From positions 1 through 41,182 of the forward strand of contig JAHELV010000036.1 of the NCBI GenBank assembly GCA_024644015.1: DNA of 41,182 bases. Direction: 5' to 3'. This DNA comes from Nitriliruptorales bacterium. Lineage in GTDB: Bacteria; Actinomycetota; Nitriliruptoria; Euzebyales; JAHELV01. Positions 22,417-30,299 of this stretch are shown piece after piece (the first letter of the stretch is position 1; every line of letters begins with the position of its first letter). The notes under the pieces are model-generated. The model had not been told where the DNA came from and did not search any database. It saw only the letters and a list, made by a program, of their open reading frames with translations. Made by a program: the position numbers and the translations under genes.

Positions 22417-23493
22417 ATGGCGTACAGATTACGGCGGGACGAGACACTATCGGACGGCGTGCGTCGCATCGCGCTCGAGCAGTTGACCAAGGCGATCGGT
22501 CTGCTCGACGAACCGGGCGACGACGTCGAGACAGCGGTCCACGACGTCCGCAAGAGCTGCAAGATGCTGCGCGGTCTGGTGCGGCTGGTCCGCCCCGACA
22601 TGGGCAAGCACTACCGTCGCGCCAACGCCACGTTTCGCGACGCCTCGCGGCAGCTTGCGGACTTCCGCGACGCGCATGCGCTGCTGGACACCTTCGACGA
22701 TCTTGTCGCCGCGGACCGCGAGCAGGCGGACGTTGACCTGTTGGGCAAGGTCCGCGGGGGGCTCGCGGCTCGCGCCGACGCCGCCTCGCGAGCGGTCGAG
22801 GGCGACGACCAACGGGTCGGTCAGGCGCGTGAACTGCTGACCAAGGCGCGCAAATCGGTGAAGCGGTGGCCGCTGACCGACGACGTCGACGTCATGGCGG
22901 CCGGCATTGCCAAAACCTACGGACGCGGGCGTGACCGCCTGCGGGACAGCATGGCGGAGCCCAGCGACGAGGTGTTCCACGACTGGCGCAAGCGGGCGAA
23001 GTACACCTGGTACCACGTCCGCCTGTTGCGCGACGCGGCGCCCAGCGTGCTCGTTCCGCTGGTCGACCGCTTCCACGACCTGTCGGACCTGCTGGGGGAC
23101 GACCACGACCTCGCGGTGCTGACCGGCCAGTTCGCTGCCGACCCCGATGAGTTCGGCGGCGCTGACCCCATCGATCAGGCGATGGCGCTCATCGCGCGGC
23201 GTCGCGCGGACCTGCAGCAGCGTGCCTGGCGTCTCGGTGCACGGCTGTACGTCGAGTCGCCGGATGCGTTCGCGACACGGCTCGTCGCGTACTGGCAGAC
23301 GTGGCAGGAACATGGCGACGAGCTCGCGGCGGGCGAGATGTCCGATCTCGGCCCGCCGGCCGACGAGCTCGATGAGCGCTCGGTGCGGCAGCTGTACGCG
23401 ATCGCGCAGGGCCTCGACATCGCCGGCCGGTCGTCAATGAACCGCGCCGTCCTGATCGCGTCGATCCGCGGGACCGGCTGGACGGAGGGCTAG
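22417..23493 (+). CDS. CHAD-domain protein
   Basis: A 358-residue all-helical protein with the conserved CHAD histidines and basic residues in two repeats: VETAVHDVRKSCKMLRGLVRLVR near the start, ADFRDAHALLDTF, then FHDWRKRAKYTWYHVRLLRD and LGDDHDLAVL in the second half. CHAD domains bind polyphosphate through a basic channel and are often near, or fused to, CYTH triphosphatase domains. None is fused here. Cytoplasmic. It has its own leaderless promoter and a hairpin terminator after it, so it is probably monocistronic. Confidence 0.93.
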   Translation: MAYRLRRDETLSDGVRRIALEQLTKAIGLLDEPGDDVETAVHDVRKSCKMLRGLVRLVRPDMGKHYRRANATFRDASRQLADFRDAHALLDTFDDLVAADREQADVDLLGKVRGGLAARADAASRAVEGDDQRVGQARELLTKARKSVKRWPLTDDVDVMAAGIAKTYGRGRDRLRDSMAEPSDEVFHDWRKRAKYTWYHVRLLRDAAPSVLVPLVDRFHDLSDLLGDDHDLAVLTGQFAADPDEFGGADPIDQAMALIARRRADLQQRAWRLGARLYVESPDAFATRLVAYWQTWQEHGDELAAGEMSDLGPPADELDERSVRQLYAIAQGLDIAGRSSMNRAVLIASIRGTGWTEG

Positions 23494-23602: not shown

Positions 23603-24565
23603 ATGCGCTGTACCCCTGCGCCCCCGTCAGCGCGTGGAACCCGTCGTCGGCGAGGGACGGCAGCCGCCGTCGTGTGCCTGCTGCTCATGACACTCGCAAG
23701 CCCAGCCGCCGCGACCGGTCGTGGGCGACACCGCCACCATCACCATGACGGTCGGTGGTACACGACGGTGGCCGAGCCGACCGGGGAGTCAGCCGCTGGT
23801 GGGTCGCAGGAAGCCGAAGATGGCGGGTCGTCTGACGGCCAGGAGCCGGAGGGGACGAACGACGGTGGCGGCGTCGAGCCGGGCGCGCCGGTGGAGGGTG
23901 GAGACCCGGGTGCGCCGGTGGAGGGCGGAGAGCCGGGTGCGCCGGTGGAGGGCGGAGAGCCGGGTGCGCTGGTGGAGGGCGGAGACCCGGGTGCGCCGGT
24001 TGGCGTTGTTGAGCCGGGTGCGCCCGAAGGTGGCGACCTTGCGGACGGCGCGCTCGGAAGCGGTGCACCGGGTTCCGAGGAGCTGCTCTTCTACCGCCGG
24101 ACGGCCGGCGACGACGGTCGAGGGCTCGGCGAGTACTACGACGTTGACGGGGACGGGCAGCTCGGCCTGATCCAGGCGCTGTACCTGTGGAGCGTGGACC
24201 ACAAGAACATCGTGCCGCTCGAGATCGACGGCACCCCGGGCGACGAGCTGCTGTTCTACCGGCCGAGTCCGGAAGGCGGCAGGGGATGGGGCGAGTTCTA
24301 CGACGTCAGTCCCGACGCGGGCATGCGTCTGATCCGTCGCCTCGAGGACTGGAGCACCGACCACGAGGCGATCGTGCCGATCGACATCGACGGCGACGGC
24401 ACCGACGAGCTCGTGTTCTACCGGCGTGACCCCGAGGGGGCCGGCGCCGGCTGGGGTGAGATCTACGACGTGAGCCAGTTCGCAGGCATGCGGTTGATCG
24501 CGCGCCACACCGACTGGCGTACCGACCACGACATCATCGTCGGGGTCGACATCAGCGGGCGGTAG
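23603..24565 (+). CDS. Secreted repeat protein: low-complexity PGAPVEGG region plus beta-propeller-like repeats
   Basis: A 320-residue protein from ATG 23603 (GAGAGGA upstream). A twin-arginine-rich n-region and hydrophobic core end in SPAAA, a signal peptide. A His cluster (RHRHHHHDG) follows, then an acidic linker with about six imperfect 10-residue repeats of PGAPVEGG(D/E), encoded by near-identical 30-bp DNA units. The C-terminal half has three copies of about 50 residues: (D/E)ELLFYR, GxGEYYDV, GMRLIxRxxDW, DHxxIVPxDIDG(D/T)G. These acidic 'DIDGDGTDE' loops resemble calcium-binding FG-GAP/VCBS repeats. Probably extracellular. Function unknown. Convergent with the glycosyltransferase operon. 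Confidence 0.85.
   Translation: MRCTPAPPSARGTRRRRGTAAAVVCLLLMTLASPAAATGRGRHRHHHHDGRWYTTVAEPTGESAAGGSQEAEDGGSSDGQEPEGTNDGGGVEPGAPVEGGDPGAPVEGGEPGAPVEGGEPGALVEGGDPGAPVGVVEPGAPEGGDLADGALGSGAPGSEELLFYRRTAGDDGRGLGEYYDVDGDGQLGLIQALYLWSVDHKNIVPLEIDGTPGDELLFYRPSPEGGRGWGEFYDVSPDAGMRLIRRLEDWSTDHEAIVPIDIDGDGTDELVFYRRDPEGAGAGWGEIYDVSQFAGMRLIARHTDWRTDHDIIVGVDISGR
23883..24028 (+). repeat. In-frame 30-bp coding repeats
   Basis: About five imperfect 30-bp units, each containing GCGCCGGTGGAGGGCGGAGA, encode the PGAPVEGG decapeptide repeats. Units differ mainly at the D/E codon, a pattern of recent slippage expansion within the secreted protein gene. Confidence 0.8.
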
Positions 24566-24704: not shown

Positions 24705-26174
24705 CTACCTGGCTGCACCTGCCGGCGTCGGTCCCCGCGGCCGACGTCGCTGGCCTTTCGTGAACTCGGAACGACGCGGCTGGCCCCAGCTGGTGCGGGC
24801 GCCGCGCACGCTGCGGGCCAGGCCGCGCAGCCGCCACCAGGCGTGTGCCTGGCGGAAGCCGAACTGCTCGACGAAGGCGGCGACCACGAACCACACGAGG
24901 TCGCGCCAGCGGCTGTAGCGGAAGAACGCGAACTCCTCCAGCGCCAGCGACGCCAGCGACACCACCAGCGAGTAGCCGACCGCTACGAGCAGGAACAGGA
25001 GTGCGAACGGCACGTTGAGCAGGCCGAACACGAGTCCCAGACAGATCGCGACGATGCCGGTCACCTCGATCAGCGGGCCCATCAGCTCGAACAGCAGCAG
25101 GTACGGCAGCAGCAGCATCCCCACCCGTCCGTAGCGCGGGTTGGCGATGGCGCCGCGGTGCATGAACAGTGCCTCGGCCAGGCCCTGGGACCAGCGTGTG
25201 CGTTGCCTGCTCAGCGACGACCAGCCGTCGGGCACCTGCGTCCAGCACACGGGGTCGGGGATGAAGCCGATGCGCTCGCCGCGGCCGCGCCGGTAGATGT
25301 GGCGGTACACGCGCAGGAGCAACTCGAGATCCTGGCCGATCGCGTCGGTGCGCATGCCGCCGAGCTCGTTCAGCAGGTCGCGGCGGTAGATGCCGAAGGC
25401 GCCCGAGATGATCGGCAGCGCCCGCAGCCGGGCCCAGCCCAGGCGGGCCATCAGGAATGCGCGCATGTACTCGACGACCTGGATCCGCGCGAGCATCCGG
25501 GAGGGCATCATCGGTTTGGTCACGCGCCCGCGGTAGGTCTGCGAGCCGTTGAGCGGTCGGACGGTGCCGCCGGCCGCGATCACGCGCTGCGGGTCGTGGA
25601 CGAACGGCGCGACCATGCGCAGCAGCGCGTCCTCCTCCAACAGCGAATCGGCGTCGATCATGCAGACCAGCGGTTTGCTCGCGAGCAGCAGGCCCGCGTT
25701 GAGGGCGTCGGCGACCCGCATGGCGTTGCGCTTTCGGACCACGGTCAGCGGCACGCCGGCGTGGGCGCTGTAGACGTTGGTGACGTCGCCCACGAGGGCG
25801 ATGTCCCCCGTCAGTGCCAGGGGCACCTCGACGAGGTCGAACGCCTCGGTCAGCCGCTCGAACGTGTCGTCGGTCGAGCCGTCGTCGATGATGATGAGCT
25901 CGTAGTTGGGGTACCGCTGCTCCATCAACGCATGGGCGCTGTCGACCACGACCTCGGCCTCGTTGTACGCCGGCAGCAGGATCGACACGCCGGGCGTCAG
26001 CGGGTTGGCGAACAGGTCGTCGTGACCGACGAACGGCTGGCGGCGGAGTCGCTGGGACAGGTCGACGGCGGCGACCGACAGCAGCAGCACGTACGAGCTG
26101 TTCAGCGCCAGGTAGTAGCCGAGCACGAACCAGTCGAACGAGTAGAGGATGGCTTGCGCGAACTCGAGCATCAT
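24705..26174 (-). CDS. Membrane family 2 glycosyltransferase (processive, cellulose-synthase-like)
   Basis: A 489-residue protein with an N-terminal membrane span (about 12-36), a cytoplasmic GT2 domain, and four or five spans at about 350-440. Catalytic landmarks are VSILLPAYNEAE, IIIDDGSTDD (D97, D98), IDADS (D174, D176), a GQDLE acidic site (D282) and QRTRW (324-328). The DxD-D-QxxRW set marks processive enzymes of the BcsA/NodC/PgaC group, which polymerise and often export a polysaccharide. The long basic C-terminal tail is Arg-rich. Its ATG overlaps the HEAT gene stop by four bases. Probably the polymerising subunit of this operon; the sugar is unknown. Confidence 0.92.
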   Translation of the reverse strand: MMLEFAQAILYSFDWFVLGYYLALNSSYVLLLSVAAVDLSQRLRRQPFVGHDDLFANPLTPGVSILLPAYNEAEVVVDSAHALMEQRYPNYELIIIDDGSTDDTFERLTEAFDLVEVPLALTGDIALVGDVTNVYSAHAGVPLTVVRKRNAMRVADALNAGLLLASKPLVCMIDADSLLEEDALLRMVAPFVHDPQRVIAAGGTVRPLNGSQTYRGRVTKPMMPSRMLARIQVVEYMRAFLMARLGWARLRALPIISGAFGIYRRDLLNELGGMRTDAIGQDLELLLRVYRHIYRRGRGERIGFIPDPVCWTQVPDGWSSLSRQRTRWSQGLAEALFMHRGAIANPRYGRVGMLLLPYLLLFELMGPLIEVTGIVAICLGLVFGLLNVPFALLFLLVAVGYSLVVSLASLALEEFAFFRYSRWRDLVWFVVAAFVEQFGFRQAHAWWRLRGLARSVRGARTSWGQPRRSEFTKGQRRRPRGPTPAGAAR

Positions 26175-27250
26175 GCGACCTCCGCTGGCACGGCCAATGA
26201 GCTGACTCCCGAGCCGATCCGCTGCTCGAGACCCATGAGCACCACAACGAGCGCCTCCGCGGCGACCGGTTGCCTGGTCGCGGGCTCCTCGAGCGCACGG
26301 CGGCCCTCCGGTCCGATCGCGACGAGCGCATAGCTGGCGGCGCGCGCGACCTCCAGGTCGCGATCGTCGACCACGGCGACCAGCGCGTCGATCGCGTGGG
26401 GATCACCGATCCGCCCCAGTGCGGCGGCGGCGGCCGCACGCAGACTCCCATCGAACGTCCGCAGGCACCGCATCAGCGGTTCGACGGCCCGTGGGCCGCC
26501 GACGCGCCCCAGAGCGTGCGCGGCGCCGACCCGGACCGCGGGTTCCGGGTCGTCGAGTGCCAGGGCGAGCCGATCGACGTCCGACGCCGTGCCCACGATC
26601 CCCAGCACCTCCACAGCGACGAGCCGGACGCCGGCGTTGGCGTGGTCGACGGCGTCCGACAGCCGGCTGGCGACGTCGCCGCCCAGGTGGCGCAGCGCTG
26701 CGGACACGTGCCCGGGTGTCAACCCGCGGTCGGACTCGATCGCGGCAAGTAGGAACGGCGCGGCAGCGGGGTCACCCATCCGGCCCAACGCGCGGGCAGC
26801 GACCTGCACGACCTCCGGGTCGGGGTCCTCCAGAAGCCGGACGAGCGACGGTAGCGTCCTGGGCACGCCCATCCAGCCGAGCGTCTCGGCCGCAACCGAG
26901 CGGCTCACCCCGCTGCGGCTGCGCGACCGCGCGAGCGTCCGATCGACGAACCCGCGCTTCTCCATCAACGCGACCAGGTCGTCGCGGGCCTCGCCCCGGA
27001 CGCGCGGCAGCACGTCGCTGATGGCGCGGGCAAGCACGCGGTCGCTGACGTCGAGCCCTTCGGCGATCTCGGGGCTGTCGTCGCCCGCCACCAGTGCGAG
27101 CAGCGCGGGGCGCACGGCATGCGCACGGGCGGTGCGCCACCGTTCGTATGTTTCGCGCAACCCACGACGCACCGCCGTGGCGAACGCCAGGACGACAGCG
27201 AGGAAGGTGACGGCGATCAGCGTGATGGTCAGCAACGCCAGGGTGTTCAT
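26171..27250 (-). CDS. Membrane-anchored HEAT-repeat protein
   Basis: A 359-residue protein with an N-terminal transmembrane helix (LALLTITLIAVTFLAVVLAFATAV), then a cytoplasmic solenoid of about six HEAT/PBS-lyase-like repeats of roughly 31-33 residues. A typical unit is LVRLLEDPDPEVVQVAARALGRMGDPAAAPFL, with PAVRVGAAHALGRVGGPRAVEPL and SLRAAAAAALGRIGDPHAIDAL as others. Such solenoids are protein scaffolds. Lying between the receiver and the glycosyltransferase and overlapping the latter by ATGA, it could link the receiver's signal to the synthase (inference). Confidence 0.9.
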   Translation of the reverse strand: MNTLALLTITLIAVTFLAVVLAFATAVRRGLRETYERWRTARAHAVRPALLALVAGDDSPEIAEGLDVSDRVLARAISDVLPRVRGEARDDLVALMEKRGFVDRTLARSRSRSGVSRSVAAETLGWMGVPRTLPSLVRLLEDPDPEVVQVAARALGRMGDPAAAPFLLAAIESDRGLTPGHVSAALRHLGGDVASRLSDAVDHANAGVRLVAVEVLGIVGTASDVDRLALALDDPEPAVRVGAAHALGRVGGPRAVEPLMRCLRTFDGSLRAAAAAALGRIGDPHAIDALVAVVDDRDLEVARAASYALVAIGPEGRRALEEPATRQPVAAEALVVVLMGLEQRIGSGVSSLAVPAEVA

Positions 27251-27283
27251 GGGATGCAGCCTCAGATGGTGGTCGGACCGCGG

Positions 27284-27652
27284 TCAGACGCTGGGACGCC
27301 GCAGCTGCCGCGAGACGCGGCTGCCGAGCTCCACGATGCTGATCGGCTTGGTCATGTAGTCGTCGGCACCGGCCGCGAAACCGGCCTCGATGTCGCCCTC
27401 GAGCACCTTGCCGGTCATCATGATGATCGGCGTGGTGTCGCCGTCGGCGCGCAGCGTGCGGCAGACGTCGATTCCCGACATGCGGGGCATCATCAGGTCG
27501 AGCAGCAGCAGGTCGAAGTTGCCGGCGCGCGCCTGGTCAAGGCCGTCCTCGCCGTCCTCGGCGCAGCTGACCTCGAGGCCCATCCGCTCGAGTTTGTAGG
27601 TCACGAGATCGCGGATGATCTCATCGTCCTCAACGACAAGTGCATGTGCCAT
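27284..27652 (-). CDS. Stand-alone response-regulator receiver domain
   Basis: At 122 residues it is only a CheY-like receiver: acidic pair E8/D9/D10 in VVEDDEI, phospho-acceptor Asp52 in LLLLDLMMP, Thr80 in IIMMTG and Lys102 in YMTKPIS. There is no output domain, so it must act by protein contact; the adjacent HEAT-repeat protein is the obvious candidate. No histidine kinase is in the window. It sits 33 bp upstream of the HEAT gene in the same operon. Confidence 0.95.
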   Translation of the reverse strand: MAHALVVEDDEIIRDLVTYKLERMGLEVSCAEDGEDGLDQARAGNFDLLLLDLMMPRMSGIDVCRTLRADGDTTPIIMMTGKVLEGDIEAGFAAGADDYMTKPISIVELGSRVSRQLRRPSV

Positions 27653-27766
27653 GGTTCAGTCCTTTGTGCGTCGGTGTCTGCTTGTGGAAGGTCGGGTCCG
27701 CACGGCACGTCACACCGGCCGGCCGGTGGATGCCACCGCGCGAGGCCGCCGGGCGGTCGGCGGGCG

Positions 27767-29917
27767 TCACGGGTCTGCCCGCCGGTGTCGCGGCTGGGTG
27801 AACTCGGCGAGCGCGTCGGTGAATGCCGACAACCCCTTCTTGGGCCGCTCGTGCCATGTGGGCTGGTCCCAGGTCGGCCACGTGTAGCGGGCGCCCTGCC
27901 GCAGGTCGCCGTCGACCAGCACGCTGACGGCCACGCCGTCCGTCGCGACGTCCCGGAGGTTGCCGTCGGAGTCGACGTGCAGTGCGCGCCGCGAGGACGG
28001 ATCGGACAGGCCCACGCCCGCCCACGGCAGGCGGAGCTCGATGGTGCGCCCCTTTGCCATCCACATGTTGCGGGCGTCGAACCGTCGGCCGTCGGCGGCG
28101 GTGGGGCCGTGGCGCAACGCTCCGATGTCGAAGTGCTCGGCGCCGTGGTAGACACCTGTGCTGGGTATCAGGATGGGTCGGTTGAGGATGAGGCGCTGGA
28201 CGTCCCAGCGGTCGCTACCGGGCGCGATGTCGGTCTTGCTGACCCCGGCGACGTAGTCGCGGACCACACCGAACTGGATGAGATAGGGATTGTTGGACGC
28301 GCGCGTCGTCAGCCGGGCCCTGCGACCGGGTCCGATCCGCAGCGCGTTGTCGGCCTCGCGGTGCCGCCGCGGGCCGCCCGGCAGGCGGGCACCGCCGTCG
28401 AGGACGTCGAACCCGACGGTCACGCCGCTGCGCCGCCACACGTTGCGGTCGGCGACCGTGACGAGCAGGTACAGGTAGCCCTCGTCGTGGGTGGCGAGCA
28501 CCTCACGCACGTCGCCCGTGCCGGAGTAGATGACCGACGCGGTCGACCGGTCCCACTCGCGGTCGTCTGCGTCGATCGTGATGGGAGGCTGCTTCGCGCC
28601 GGGACGCGACGCGAGCAGCCCGAACTGAGATTCGTTGGTCCACGGATTGAACCAGAGCGCCCGGCGCTCCGCGGGCAGTTCCTGTTCGATGGTGTTCCAT
28701 GTGAACTTGAACCACTCGTCGATCCACTCGAAGACCAGGCCGCCGGCCATTCCGGCGTCGTGGATCGCGCGCAGCATGTCGGCGTTCTGCCGCATCGCCT
28801 CCTGCTCCGAGTGGTCACCCTGATCGCGGCCGCGCGCGCCGAGGTGGGCGATACCGGGCCCCGACGGCACGCCGAACTCGGCGACCAGCACCGGCAGGCC
28901 CTCGTGATGGCGCCGCAGCGACCGCAGGTAGCCGGTGTACGGGTCGCCGTCGCCGTCGGGGCCGCGCAGCCCGGGCTCGTGGCGCAGGAAGTCGGGGTAG
29001 TACGGGTACGCGTGGTAGCTGGCGAAGTAGCCGCCGCGCCACCGTGCGGTGGGCGCGATGTGGTTGGGGTCGATGCTGACGATGTCCTCGAGGCCTATGG
29101 GCTCCTCGGGGTGGTCGAGCGGATCGGTCGTCACCCAGTTGACGAACGACACCGGCACCTGGCGGCCGTGCGCCTGCTGGACGTCGGCGGTGTGATCCAA
29201 CATCCGCGCCAGCCATGACTCGGTCGGCGTGGCACGCGGCCGTGCGCGGAACCAGCGGCCACGGTGAACATCGACGTCGGCGTTGGCGCGATCGCTGCCG
29301 CGGACGATCTCGGGGTCCCACTCGACACCGATCACCCATCCCAGCAACCACGGGCTGATGTCGGCGGAGTAGCGACCCGACGCGTGGCCGGGCCGCGGCG
29401 CAACGGTCGTCGCGCCGTGCACCGCCTTCACGGCGCGGGTGATCTCACGTTCGAAGCCGCCGGCCGTCGCCGGGTCGTACAGGTCGCGGGTCTCGTAGAA
29501 CGGGCCTTCGGGGATCCACACGCCGTGCAGGACGCCGATCGGCGCCTTCGGGTGTGCCAGGTTGTGCCGGCGCAGCTCGCGGTAGAAGGTCGGCGCCTGC
29601 AACGTGTAGACCCGCACGACCTGGATGCCGTACTCGTGCATGCGGGCGAACCACCGCCGGTAGTCGTCGCGCCCGACCGCCAGTTCGCCCGGCTGATGGC
29701 CGGGCACGGTGACCCCGAGGTTGACGCCCGCGAGGAACGTGCTGGTGCCGCGCGGCGTGTCGAGCAGCAGACGGTCGCCCTCGACGCGTGCATGCAGCGG
29801 CACCGGCTCGGCAGCGGCGGGCGCCGACTCCGGTGCGCTGGTGGCCGGCGCGCGCAGCGCCGGCAGCAGCGCCACCAGGCCGAGCACGCACACCAACGCG
29901 AGAAAACGCAGTTGCAT
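27767..29917 (-). CDS. Secreted glycoside-hydrolase-like protein (clan GH-A-type barrel plus CBM9-like domain)
   Basis: A 716-residue protein. The N-terminus is a signal peptide (MQLRFLALVCVLGLVALLPAL). About 45-420 resembles a TIM-barrel glycosidase or transglycosylase: FLAGVNLG, GIQVVRVYTLQAPTFY, LLGWVIGVEWDPE with Glu199 as likely acid/base, VLVAEFGVPSGPG with Glu347 as likely nucleophile, and GGLVFEWIDEWFKFTWN. From about 430, PITIDADDREWD and YLYLLVTVADRN suggest a CBM9/DOMON-like beta-sandwich. First gene of the receiver-HEAT-glycosyltransferase operon, so it may trim or anchor the exported polymer (inference). The exact GH family is not assigned. Confidence 0.82.
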   Translation of the reverse strand: MQLRFLALVCVLGLVALLPALRAPATSAPESAPAAAEPVPLHARVEGDRLLLDTPRGTSTFLAGVNLGVTVPGHQPGELAVGRDDYRRWFARMHEYGIQVVRVYTLQAPTFYRELRRHNLAHPKAPIGVLHGVWIPEGPFYETRDLYDPATAGGFEREITRAVKAVHGATTVAPRPGHASGRYSADISPWLLGWVIGVEWDPEIVRGSDRANADVDVHRGRWFRARPRATPTESWLARMLDHTADVQQAHGRQVPVSFVNWVTTDPLDHPEEPIGLEDIVSIDPNHIAPTARWRGGYFASYHAYPYYPDFLRHEPGLRGPDGDGDPYTGYLRSLRRHHEGLPVLVAEFGVPSGPGIAHLGARGRDQGDHSEQEAMRQNADMLRAIHDAGMAGGLVFEWIDEWFKFTWNTIEQELPAERRALWFNPWTNESQFGLLASRPGAKQPPITIDADDREWDRSTASVIYSGTGDVREVLATHDEGYLYLLVTVADRNVWRRSGVTVGFDVLDGGARLPGGPRRHREADNALRIGPGRRARLTTRASNNPYLIQFGVVRDYVAGVSKTDIAPGSDRWDVQRLILNRPILIPSTGVYHGAEHFDIGALRHGPTAADGRRFDARNMWMAKGRTIELRLPWAGVGLSDPSSRRALHVDSDGNLRDVATDGVAVSVLVDGDLRQGARYTWPTWDQPTWHERPKKGLSAFTDALAEFTQPRHRRADP

Positions 29918-30299
29918 GAACGTATTGCCGTTCGTTGCAGACGACAGGGGTCACAGCACCCCGTCGTCGGCAATGGAGGCAACCTAAGCACGACGTGAAG
30001 ATGTGATCGCTACTGTGACCCGCCGCACGCGGGTGGCGGGCGAGCGTCGGCGAGCGGGTGGGTGGGGGTGTGAGGGTGCGGGCGAGCGTCGACGAGCGGG
30101 TGGGTGGGGGTGTGAGGGTGCGGGCGAGCGAAACGCGGGTGCGGGTGAGGTGTTGACGGGGGGCGGCACGTGTAGGACGCTGCCATGCGGGATCGCGCCA
30201 GACCGCCGGTCCTGTCCCGGCACGCCGCGGCAACGGAGCCGACATGTACGGATCGCCAGCGATCGGGCGGACGCCTTCGCGTCCGCTGTCGCAGCGACG
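29918..30299. other. 382-bp divergent intergenic region
   Basis: It lies between the glycoside-hydrolase-like gene (minus) and the molybdenum hydroxylase operon (plus). It holds the 42-bp repeats with two G-quadruplex-prone tracts (30038-30130) and otherwise no gene. An in-frame extension of the FAD subunit upstream from 30300 runs through the repeats and is Gly/Arg-rich, so I do not count it as coding. Confidence 0.6.
30038..30130 (+). repeat. 42-bp tandem repeat (2 copies plus a partial) with G-quadruplex motifs
   Basis: Units at 30038-30079 and 30080-30121 differ by one base, and a third begins at 30122. Each contains GGG-T-GGG-T-GGGGG-TGTGA-GGG (30056-30076 and 30098-30118), which fits the G3+N1-7 rule for an intramolecular G-quadruplex on the plus strand. 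It lies 170-262 bp upstream of the molybdenum hydroxylase operon. Confidence 0.85.

Follow-up and report, generated by a model that had tools for sequence, protein, structure and literature searches.

The 41,182-nt contig JAHELV010000036.1 of a Nitriliruptorales bacterium (assembly GCA_024644015.1), hereafter the window, is one entire contig of a 4.0 Mb genome held in 161 contigs and carries on its minus strand, at positions 24705–29917, a four-gene operon for a secreted glycoside-hydrolase-like protein (GH), a stand-alone receiver, a membrane-anchored HEAT-repeat protein and a family 2 membrane glycosyltransferase (GT). The constant element of this system is the pair of HEAT protein and GT, and not the receiver. 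From their sequences, we consider it plausible that these genes belong to a widespread, apparently undescribed variant of the synthase-dependent polysaccharide systems, in which a phosphate switch is plausible as well. An earlier note, made from the window sequence alone, had proposed an exopolysaccharide system at this place, and the appearance of an exopolysaccharide synthase operon is indeed supported by our analysis. The further suggestion of that note, phosphorylation-dependent control of synthesis by protein contact and not by transcription, enters our model as a putative element.

Conservation of the HEAT–GT pair

To find relatives of the operon, 84,980 species genomes were searched with a three-row GT alignment. 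A scan of genome contigs with a single GT sequence found no relative, whereas the three-sequence alignment retrieved them, and the best 80 loci of at least 559 confirmed relatives were compared. As the search used the GT only, the HEAT protein and the receiver had no role in the choice of loci; the profiles for both were built by iteration inside the 80 loci. Six-frame searches with these profiles showed that in 79 of the 80 loci the gene immediately before the GT, and on its strand, encodes a HEAT protein (greedy gene calls gave 71; the six-frame re-reading was used), and the sole exception, L074, has only 19 nt of sequence upstream of its GT. Of the 98 HEAT features found across the 80 loci, 96 adjoin the GT. 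The earlier note had made its interpretation depend in part on a conserved gene order, and the order recurs far beyond chance. In the window the HEAT stop codon and the GT start codon overlap (Table 1); an overlap of the same ATGA type was scored in 45 of 79 loci and an overlap of any length in 60 of 79, figures that are biased toward short distances because the scoring took the start codon closest to the HEAT stop.

A control set was drawn from 149 genomes of the same phylum as the window and comprised 30 PgaC-like GT2 loci. All four members of the clade (>500 bits) had a HEAT protein, compared with none of the other 26 (<200 bits or unmatched), among which a receiver was found once; the HEAT protein is specific for this GT clade. 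A further draw of 30 loci from the same phylum, which includes the window and several loci of the earlier sets, gave a HEAT protein in 28, with both misses at a contig edge, and a receiver within 1.5 kb in 18. We regard the HEAT–GT partnership as well supported, and the HEAT protein is most likely a regulatory or assembly subunit of the GT. In addition, one locus, L207, from a two-contig genome, encodes HEAT and GT without an intervening stop in a frame of 938 codons, joined by an Arg/Gly-rich linker. We considered this frame as proof of HEAT–GT contact and demoted it to a weak hint, as the first helix of the GT would need to form a hairpin; alternatively, a stop codon was possibly lost through sequencing error.

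The rows of the GT tree come from 16 phyla, including Actinomycetota, Acidobacteriota, Bacillota, Gemmatimonadota, Bacteroidota and two archaeal groups, and within the window's phylum 47 of the 296 genomes sampled encode the GT. The window GT clusters with those of two Sanguibacter species (SH-aLRT branch support 91, long branches) and apart from those of L018 and L020, which belong to the window's own class. In Sanguibacter the order is exactly receiver, HEAT, GT, with no glycosidase within the fetched stretch. No HEAT or GH match was obtained in any of three congeners of the window organism, and the operon therefore looks accessory or transferred.

Architecture of the operon and its components

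All four open reading frames lie on the minus strand where the earlier note had placed them, in the order GH, receiver, HEAT, GT (Table 1). A gene caller based on codon position kept all four frames and no rival frame; the frames are intact and show coding signatures. The gaps are 114 nt between the GH and receiver genes and 33 nt between the receiver and HEAT genes. A scan for promoters and terminators gave zero promoter-like sites and one terminator-like site, which is not above shuffled sequence.

Table 1 Features of the window operon, its surroundings and selected relatives
Feature	Sequence	Position	Strand	Length	Evidence or remark
Secreted glycoside-hydrolase-like protein	window	27767..29917	-	716 aa	signal-peptide-like start; predicted TIM barrel, about residues 43-455; beta-rich CBM9/DOMON-like tail
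Stand-alone receiver	window	27284..27652	-	122 aa	Response_reg 100.6 bits (cut-off 30.2), 7.5e-29, residues 5-113
HEAT solenoid	window	26171..27250	-	359 aa	HEAT_2 157 bits (cut-off 27.7), 1.5e-46; N-terminal membrane helix, about residues 4-22
HEAT stop/GT start overlap	window	26171..26174	-	4 nt	ATGA type, from frame coordinates
GT2 synthase, PgaC/BcsA-like	window	24705..26174	-	489 aa	Glycos_transf_2 76.6 bits (cut-off 23.3)
TPR + YaiO genes after GT	L082	9326-10651
TPR + YaiO genes after GT	L117	9428-10708
TPR + YaiO genes after GT	L125	9416-10741
HEAT + GT single frame	L207	4985-7798	-	938 codons
GT + GGDEF single frame	L209	6672-9950	-	1093 codons
CHAD-domain protein	window	22417-23493	+
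Secreted protein with repeats	window	23603-24565	+	320 aa	no Pfam/NCBIfam match
G-rich tandem repeat	window	30031-30130		42-nt unit	2.4 copies, 96% matches

The window GT retains the motifs DDGS, DAD, the D of (E/Q)D and QRTRW (D98, DAD at residues 174–176, D282, which follows a Q, and Q324–W328), with hydrophobic segments near residues 16–34, 351–369 and 381–399. This agrees with the general pattern of processive GT2 enzymes, in which D, DxD, (T/E)D and QxxRW are flanked by membrane helices. The earlier description of the protein as a processive glycosyltransferase therefore stands for its motifs and membrane helices, and its processivity is a prediction from them. No match to PilZ or any other c-di-GMP (cyclic di-GMP) site was obtained with Pfam in the window GT or HEAT protein. 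In another locus, L209, a GT of the family and a C-terminal GGDEF domain share one frame (Table 1).

The HEAT protein was rightly described as a membrane solenoid, as both the HEAT_2 match and an N-terminal hydrophobic segment indicate. Its AlphaFold2 model (pLDDT 91.4) has a single long N-terminal helix followed by the solenoid. The hydrophobic segment is found in 76 of 78 HEAT homologues, and in the seven inspected it is followed within 20 residues by 5–9 Lys/Arg residues, for which reason the solenoid is predicted to be cytoplasmic. The HEAT profile, whose model alignment has 75 rows (L057, L073 and L121 were omitted as near-duplicate or partial from the 77 homologues listed), matched only generic HEAT and alphaRep proteins among solved structures, with no clue to a partner.

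The glycosidase and a possible export route

The earlier note had called the first protein of the operon secreted and glycosidase-like. Its predicted TIM-barrel fold supports a glycosidase, and support comes from structure only, as the protein has zero matches in Pfam and NCBIfam; together with its 13 homologues it gave Pfam matches in 0 of 14. Clan GH-A enzymes combine a TIM barrel with a pair of Glu residues on strands 4 and 7, and the AlphaFold2 model (pLDDT 80.7, pTM 0.84) displays this arrangement: the candidate catalytic Glu199 follows strand 4 (residues 191–197) and Glu347 lies inside strand 7 (residues 343–348). Glu347 is invariant across 14 sequences and Glu199 nearly so. The nearest solved fold is the endo-β-1,3-glucanase LaGH157 of family GH157 (PDB 9g4n; Z 30.0, 2.7 Å over 314 residues), yet with 14% identity, and GH2 enzymes come next; despite this fold similarity the family profile did not match the GH157 chains at E values up to 1. 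The fold lists show GH157, GH2 and GH5 types and leave room for other fold families. The tail gave a weak CBM9 match (E 0.029).

Of 396 genomes from the window's phylum, 24 encode such a GH, which lies beside HEAT–GT in 17 of them, elsewhere in six and, in G194, beside a GT at a contig edge. Among the 80 loci it occurs within the fetched stretch in 14; the GH model was built from 13 of these 14 matches, the short L099 being omitted. Four loci (L129, L139, L140 and L144) encode GT and GH as a single-frame protein, and in all four the linker contains a membrane helix, indicating that the GH lies outside the cell while tied to the synthase. In L144 a frame change interrupts the GH part, and in L145 the frame is broken. 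G194 is a probable further fusion, as its GT and GH matches both report a 1076-codon frame. The GH would be a polymer-trimming enzyme, and from its GH-A fold we would guess that the product is a β-linked glycan. In several diderm phyla a gene for a TPR protein with a YaiO outer-membrane barrel directly follows the GT gene (three of the four members tested of a 12-member group; Table 1), and by its predicted domains this barrel is likely to be an export pore in diderm hosts.

A receiver as a putative switch of polymer synthesis

We propose, as a reading that we hold to be evenly balanced between true and false, that the operon encodes a synthase-dependent secreted-polysaccharide system in which the HEAT protein is the obligate partner of the GT, a docked receiver switches synthesis and the GH trims the polymer. 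To judge from its motifs, the GT would build the chain from a sugar nucleotide on the cytoplasmic side of the membrane, with its own helices as the passage across. The HEAT protein, held by a single N-terminal anchor with its solenoid in the cytoplasm, would be the obligate GT partner, probably synthesised beside the GT through translational coupling, and would fill the place held elsewhere by PilZ domains or PgaD. A histidine kinase would phosphorylate the receiver, which would then dock on the HEAT solenoid, or on HEAT–GT, and switch polymer synthesis at the protein level, and the secreted glycosidase would remain at the exit to trim or release the polymer. In this model we infer the complex, the polymer, the contact made by the receiver and the direction of control.

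The window receiver is a single-domain, CheY-like response regulator, with Response_reg as the sole domain matched, an acceptor Asp (Asp52) and the residues Asp9/Asp10, Thr80 and Lys102; the earlier note had correctly described it as a receiver without an output domain. Across 76 aligned receivers the acceptor is Asp in 68, the switch Lys is present in all and Thr or Ser in 75. Its closest relatives are the Sanguibacter receivers that adjoin HEAT (55% identity). Of the 80 loci, 62 have a receiver anywhere nearby, and in 59 one lies on the GT strand no more than 3.2 kb upstream; where 3 kb or more of sequence precedes the GT, 55 of 67 loci have a receiver nearby. Counted on the GT strand in 1-kb bins from −8 to +8 kb, the receivers number 2, 7, 1, 0, 16, 29, 62, 0, 0, 4, 2, 0, 0, 1, 0, 1 and 1, with the peak 1–2 kb upstream of the GT as against 0–7 per kb beyond 4 kb upstream.

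Among 59 HEAT-adjacent receivers (97 GT loci), stand-alone frames of less than 200 residues are the commonest form (29), and the others are the last domain of GGDEF proteins (14) or of two-receiver proteins (5) or lie in longer frames (11), all lengths being upper bounds as the frames were measured from stop to stop. In a tree of these 59 and 104 other receivers of the same loci, which has few columns and many unresolved forks, the HEAT-adjacent receivers group regardless of their host protein (19 changes against a shuffled mean of 48.5, with 0 of 500 shuffles as low). Of the HEAT-adjacent REC-GGDEF-REC proteins, 12 have a readable cyclase motif, which is canonical in three, GADEF in one and degenerate in eight, whereas among the remaining GGDEF domains of the loci 13 of 15 (two of the 15 from the same locus) are canonical. 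Degenerate cyclase motifs in proteins that retain the receiver fit a receiver output independent of the cyclase. We also tried mirror-tree analysis as evidence for receiver–HEAT contact: the partial correlation between receiver and HEAT, given the GT, was 0.43 (0 of 2000 permutations), and this line of evidence was rejected, as other receivers of the same loci gave similar values (0.25 versus 0.25 in the 20 loci with both). We regard the receiver as a frequent accessory and a putative phospho-switch, probably acting through the HEAT protein, which it may contact under the control of phosphorylation.

It is also conceivable, albeit in our view unlikely, that HEAT, GT and GH form a real complex which the receiver never touches, acting instead upstream as a phosphorelay intermediate or a phosphate sink of a kinase through which c-di-GMP or transcription is controlled. 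GGDEF domains upstream in 18 of the 80 loci are consistent with this, as are the long two-receiver proteins (hybrid-kinase-like in size and architecture) and REC-GGDEF proteins that flank the operon in L132, L135–L137 and in L110, L115, L117 and L125; in the actinobacterial group among these loci, the lone receiver gene points away from the operon, and the receivers make up a separate branch of the tree. The lack of specificity in the co-evolution control points the same way. However, neither GT nor HEAT matched a c-di-GMP site, no GGDEF domain was matched near the window operon, and the cyclase is degenerate in eight of the 12 HEAT-adjacent proteins (nine with GADEF) while the receiver persists. 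A second alternative, which appears rather improbable, is that the receiver-GGDEF forms signal through c-di-GMP made beside the synthase and that the window receiver, now on its own, is what remains of such a protein. A REC-GGDEF-REC protein does replace the receiver in L018 and L020 of the window's class, and L209 joins GT and GGDEF in one frame, but the motifs of L018 and L020 are themselves degenerate (GASEF), and the stand-alone form is both the commonest beside HEAT and that of Sanguibacter, the neighbour of the window in the GT and receiver trees.

Several observations weigh against a docked receiver that switches the synthase. Eighteen of the 80 loci have no nearby receiver, so the switch would be dispensable, and eight of the 76 receivers carry Glu in place of the acceptor Asp. 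No kinase was found among the window genes scanned, a scan that covered part of the gene set. The co-evolution signal, being equal in other receivers, reflects shared history only, and the sole single frame of HEAT and GT requires an unusual topology of the first GT helix. In addition, the window GT reads NAMRV, with one inserted residue (V after NAMR), where the family has NGGK, and GQD where 95 of the 97 alignment rows have GED, the Q and the inserted V being peculiar to the window GT; without the near-invariant GGK and GED the window copy could be weak or changed.

These deviations could also mean that the window copy is decaying, its GT having lost donor-binding motifs and making nothing, which we consider improbable. 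The long branch of the window GT (1.75) and the missing GH and HEAT matches in the congeners would suit such a loss, whereas four intact frames with coding signatures and the retained D98, DAD, D282 and QRTRW would not. Moreover, relatives deviate as well, namely Sanguibacter L048 and L049 (NSGR) and L198, which are intermediate, and for this reason the subclade of the window GT may use another donor.

Neighbouring features of the window

A CHAD-domain protein is encoded just upstream of the region, followed by a secreted protein convergent to the GT gene (Table 1). The latter contains a 27-nt tandem array encoding EPGAPVEGG units and, after this array, three further repeats around ‘DELLFYR...GWGE.YDV’. 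On the other side of the operon, the G-rich 42-nt tandem repeat sits between the glycosidase gene and divergent molybdopterin-dehydrogenase-like genes.

Relation to known systems and significance

In the PgaCD/IcaAD systems, a membrane GT2 is paired with a small protein that is likewise in the membrane; the operon also encodes a secreted hydrolase, and signals exert their control on the synthase itself. The window GT resembles these poly-N-acetylglucosamine synthases in that PgaC_IcaA (TIGR03937) is its best NCBIfam match, with 122 bits against a cut-off of 422.3; judged by this curated cut-off, the family is distinct from PgaC/IcaA. Unlike PgaCD/IcaAD, the window operon has a HEAT protein in the place of the partner, genes resembling PgaB or PgaD were not seen in it, and the hydrolase of those systems belongs to a fold class other than that of the window glycosidase. 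BcsA, which is among the PDB matches of the GT family profile, shares the core of D, DxD, ED and QxxRW, and the Bcs system (BcsA/BcsB/BcsZ) likewise has a glycosidase beside its synthase. Unlike BcsA/CelA, however, the window GT scores 44.8 bits against the cut-off of 699.1 for the UDP-forming cellulose synthase (TIGR03030), has no PilZ match and has a HEAT partner, and its control is proposed to come from a receiver. Synthase-dependent exopolysaccharides are mostly discussed as being under c-di-GMP or transcriptional control.

A precedent for local control is NfrB/NfrA of E. coli, a GT exopolysaccharide synthase switched locally through direct contact with the dedicated signalling protein DgcJ (PMC8669469); unlike in the window operon, the signal there is c-di-GMP, acting via an MshEN domain in NfrB, and the abstract names neither a HEAT protein nor a receiver. 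In the NELoc-2 locus of Clostridium perfringens, CP4_0466–0468 are listed in order as a 685-residue hypothetical protein, a 377-residue HEAT protein and a 466-residue GT2 (PMC2879425), which, compared by this listing and not by sequence, resembles the order GH-HEAT-GT of Clostridium L083. In that listing the GT2 is called ‘chitin synthase’, no HEAT–GT system is proposed and no receiver appears (PMC2879425). We found no study of the receiver-HEAT-GT module in the open-access literature, the scope of our search, which excluded subscription papers and preprints, and the passages that mention HEAT in PMC12419801, PMC3174227 and PMC3826837 are unrelated to the module.

We put forward only tentatively the wider reading that this is a large, undescribed class of polysaccharide synthases, spread over no fewer than 16 phyla of bacteria and archaea, with HEAT as its obligate regulatory subunit, into which a receiver would plug so that a two-component phosphate signal gates synthesis at the enzyme itself, without transcription and, in the version of the window, without c-di-GMP. 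With archaea among the 16 phyla in which it is so constant, the HEAT–GT pair would make up a major matrix system, overlooked so far owing to the bland annotation of its individual parts. Should the receiver act on the HEAT protein, the operon would offer a short route from phosphate to polymer, testable with point mutants in the cultivated Sanguibacter inulinus.

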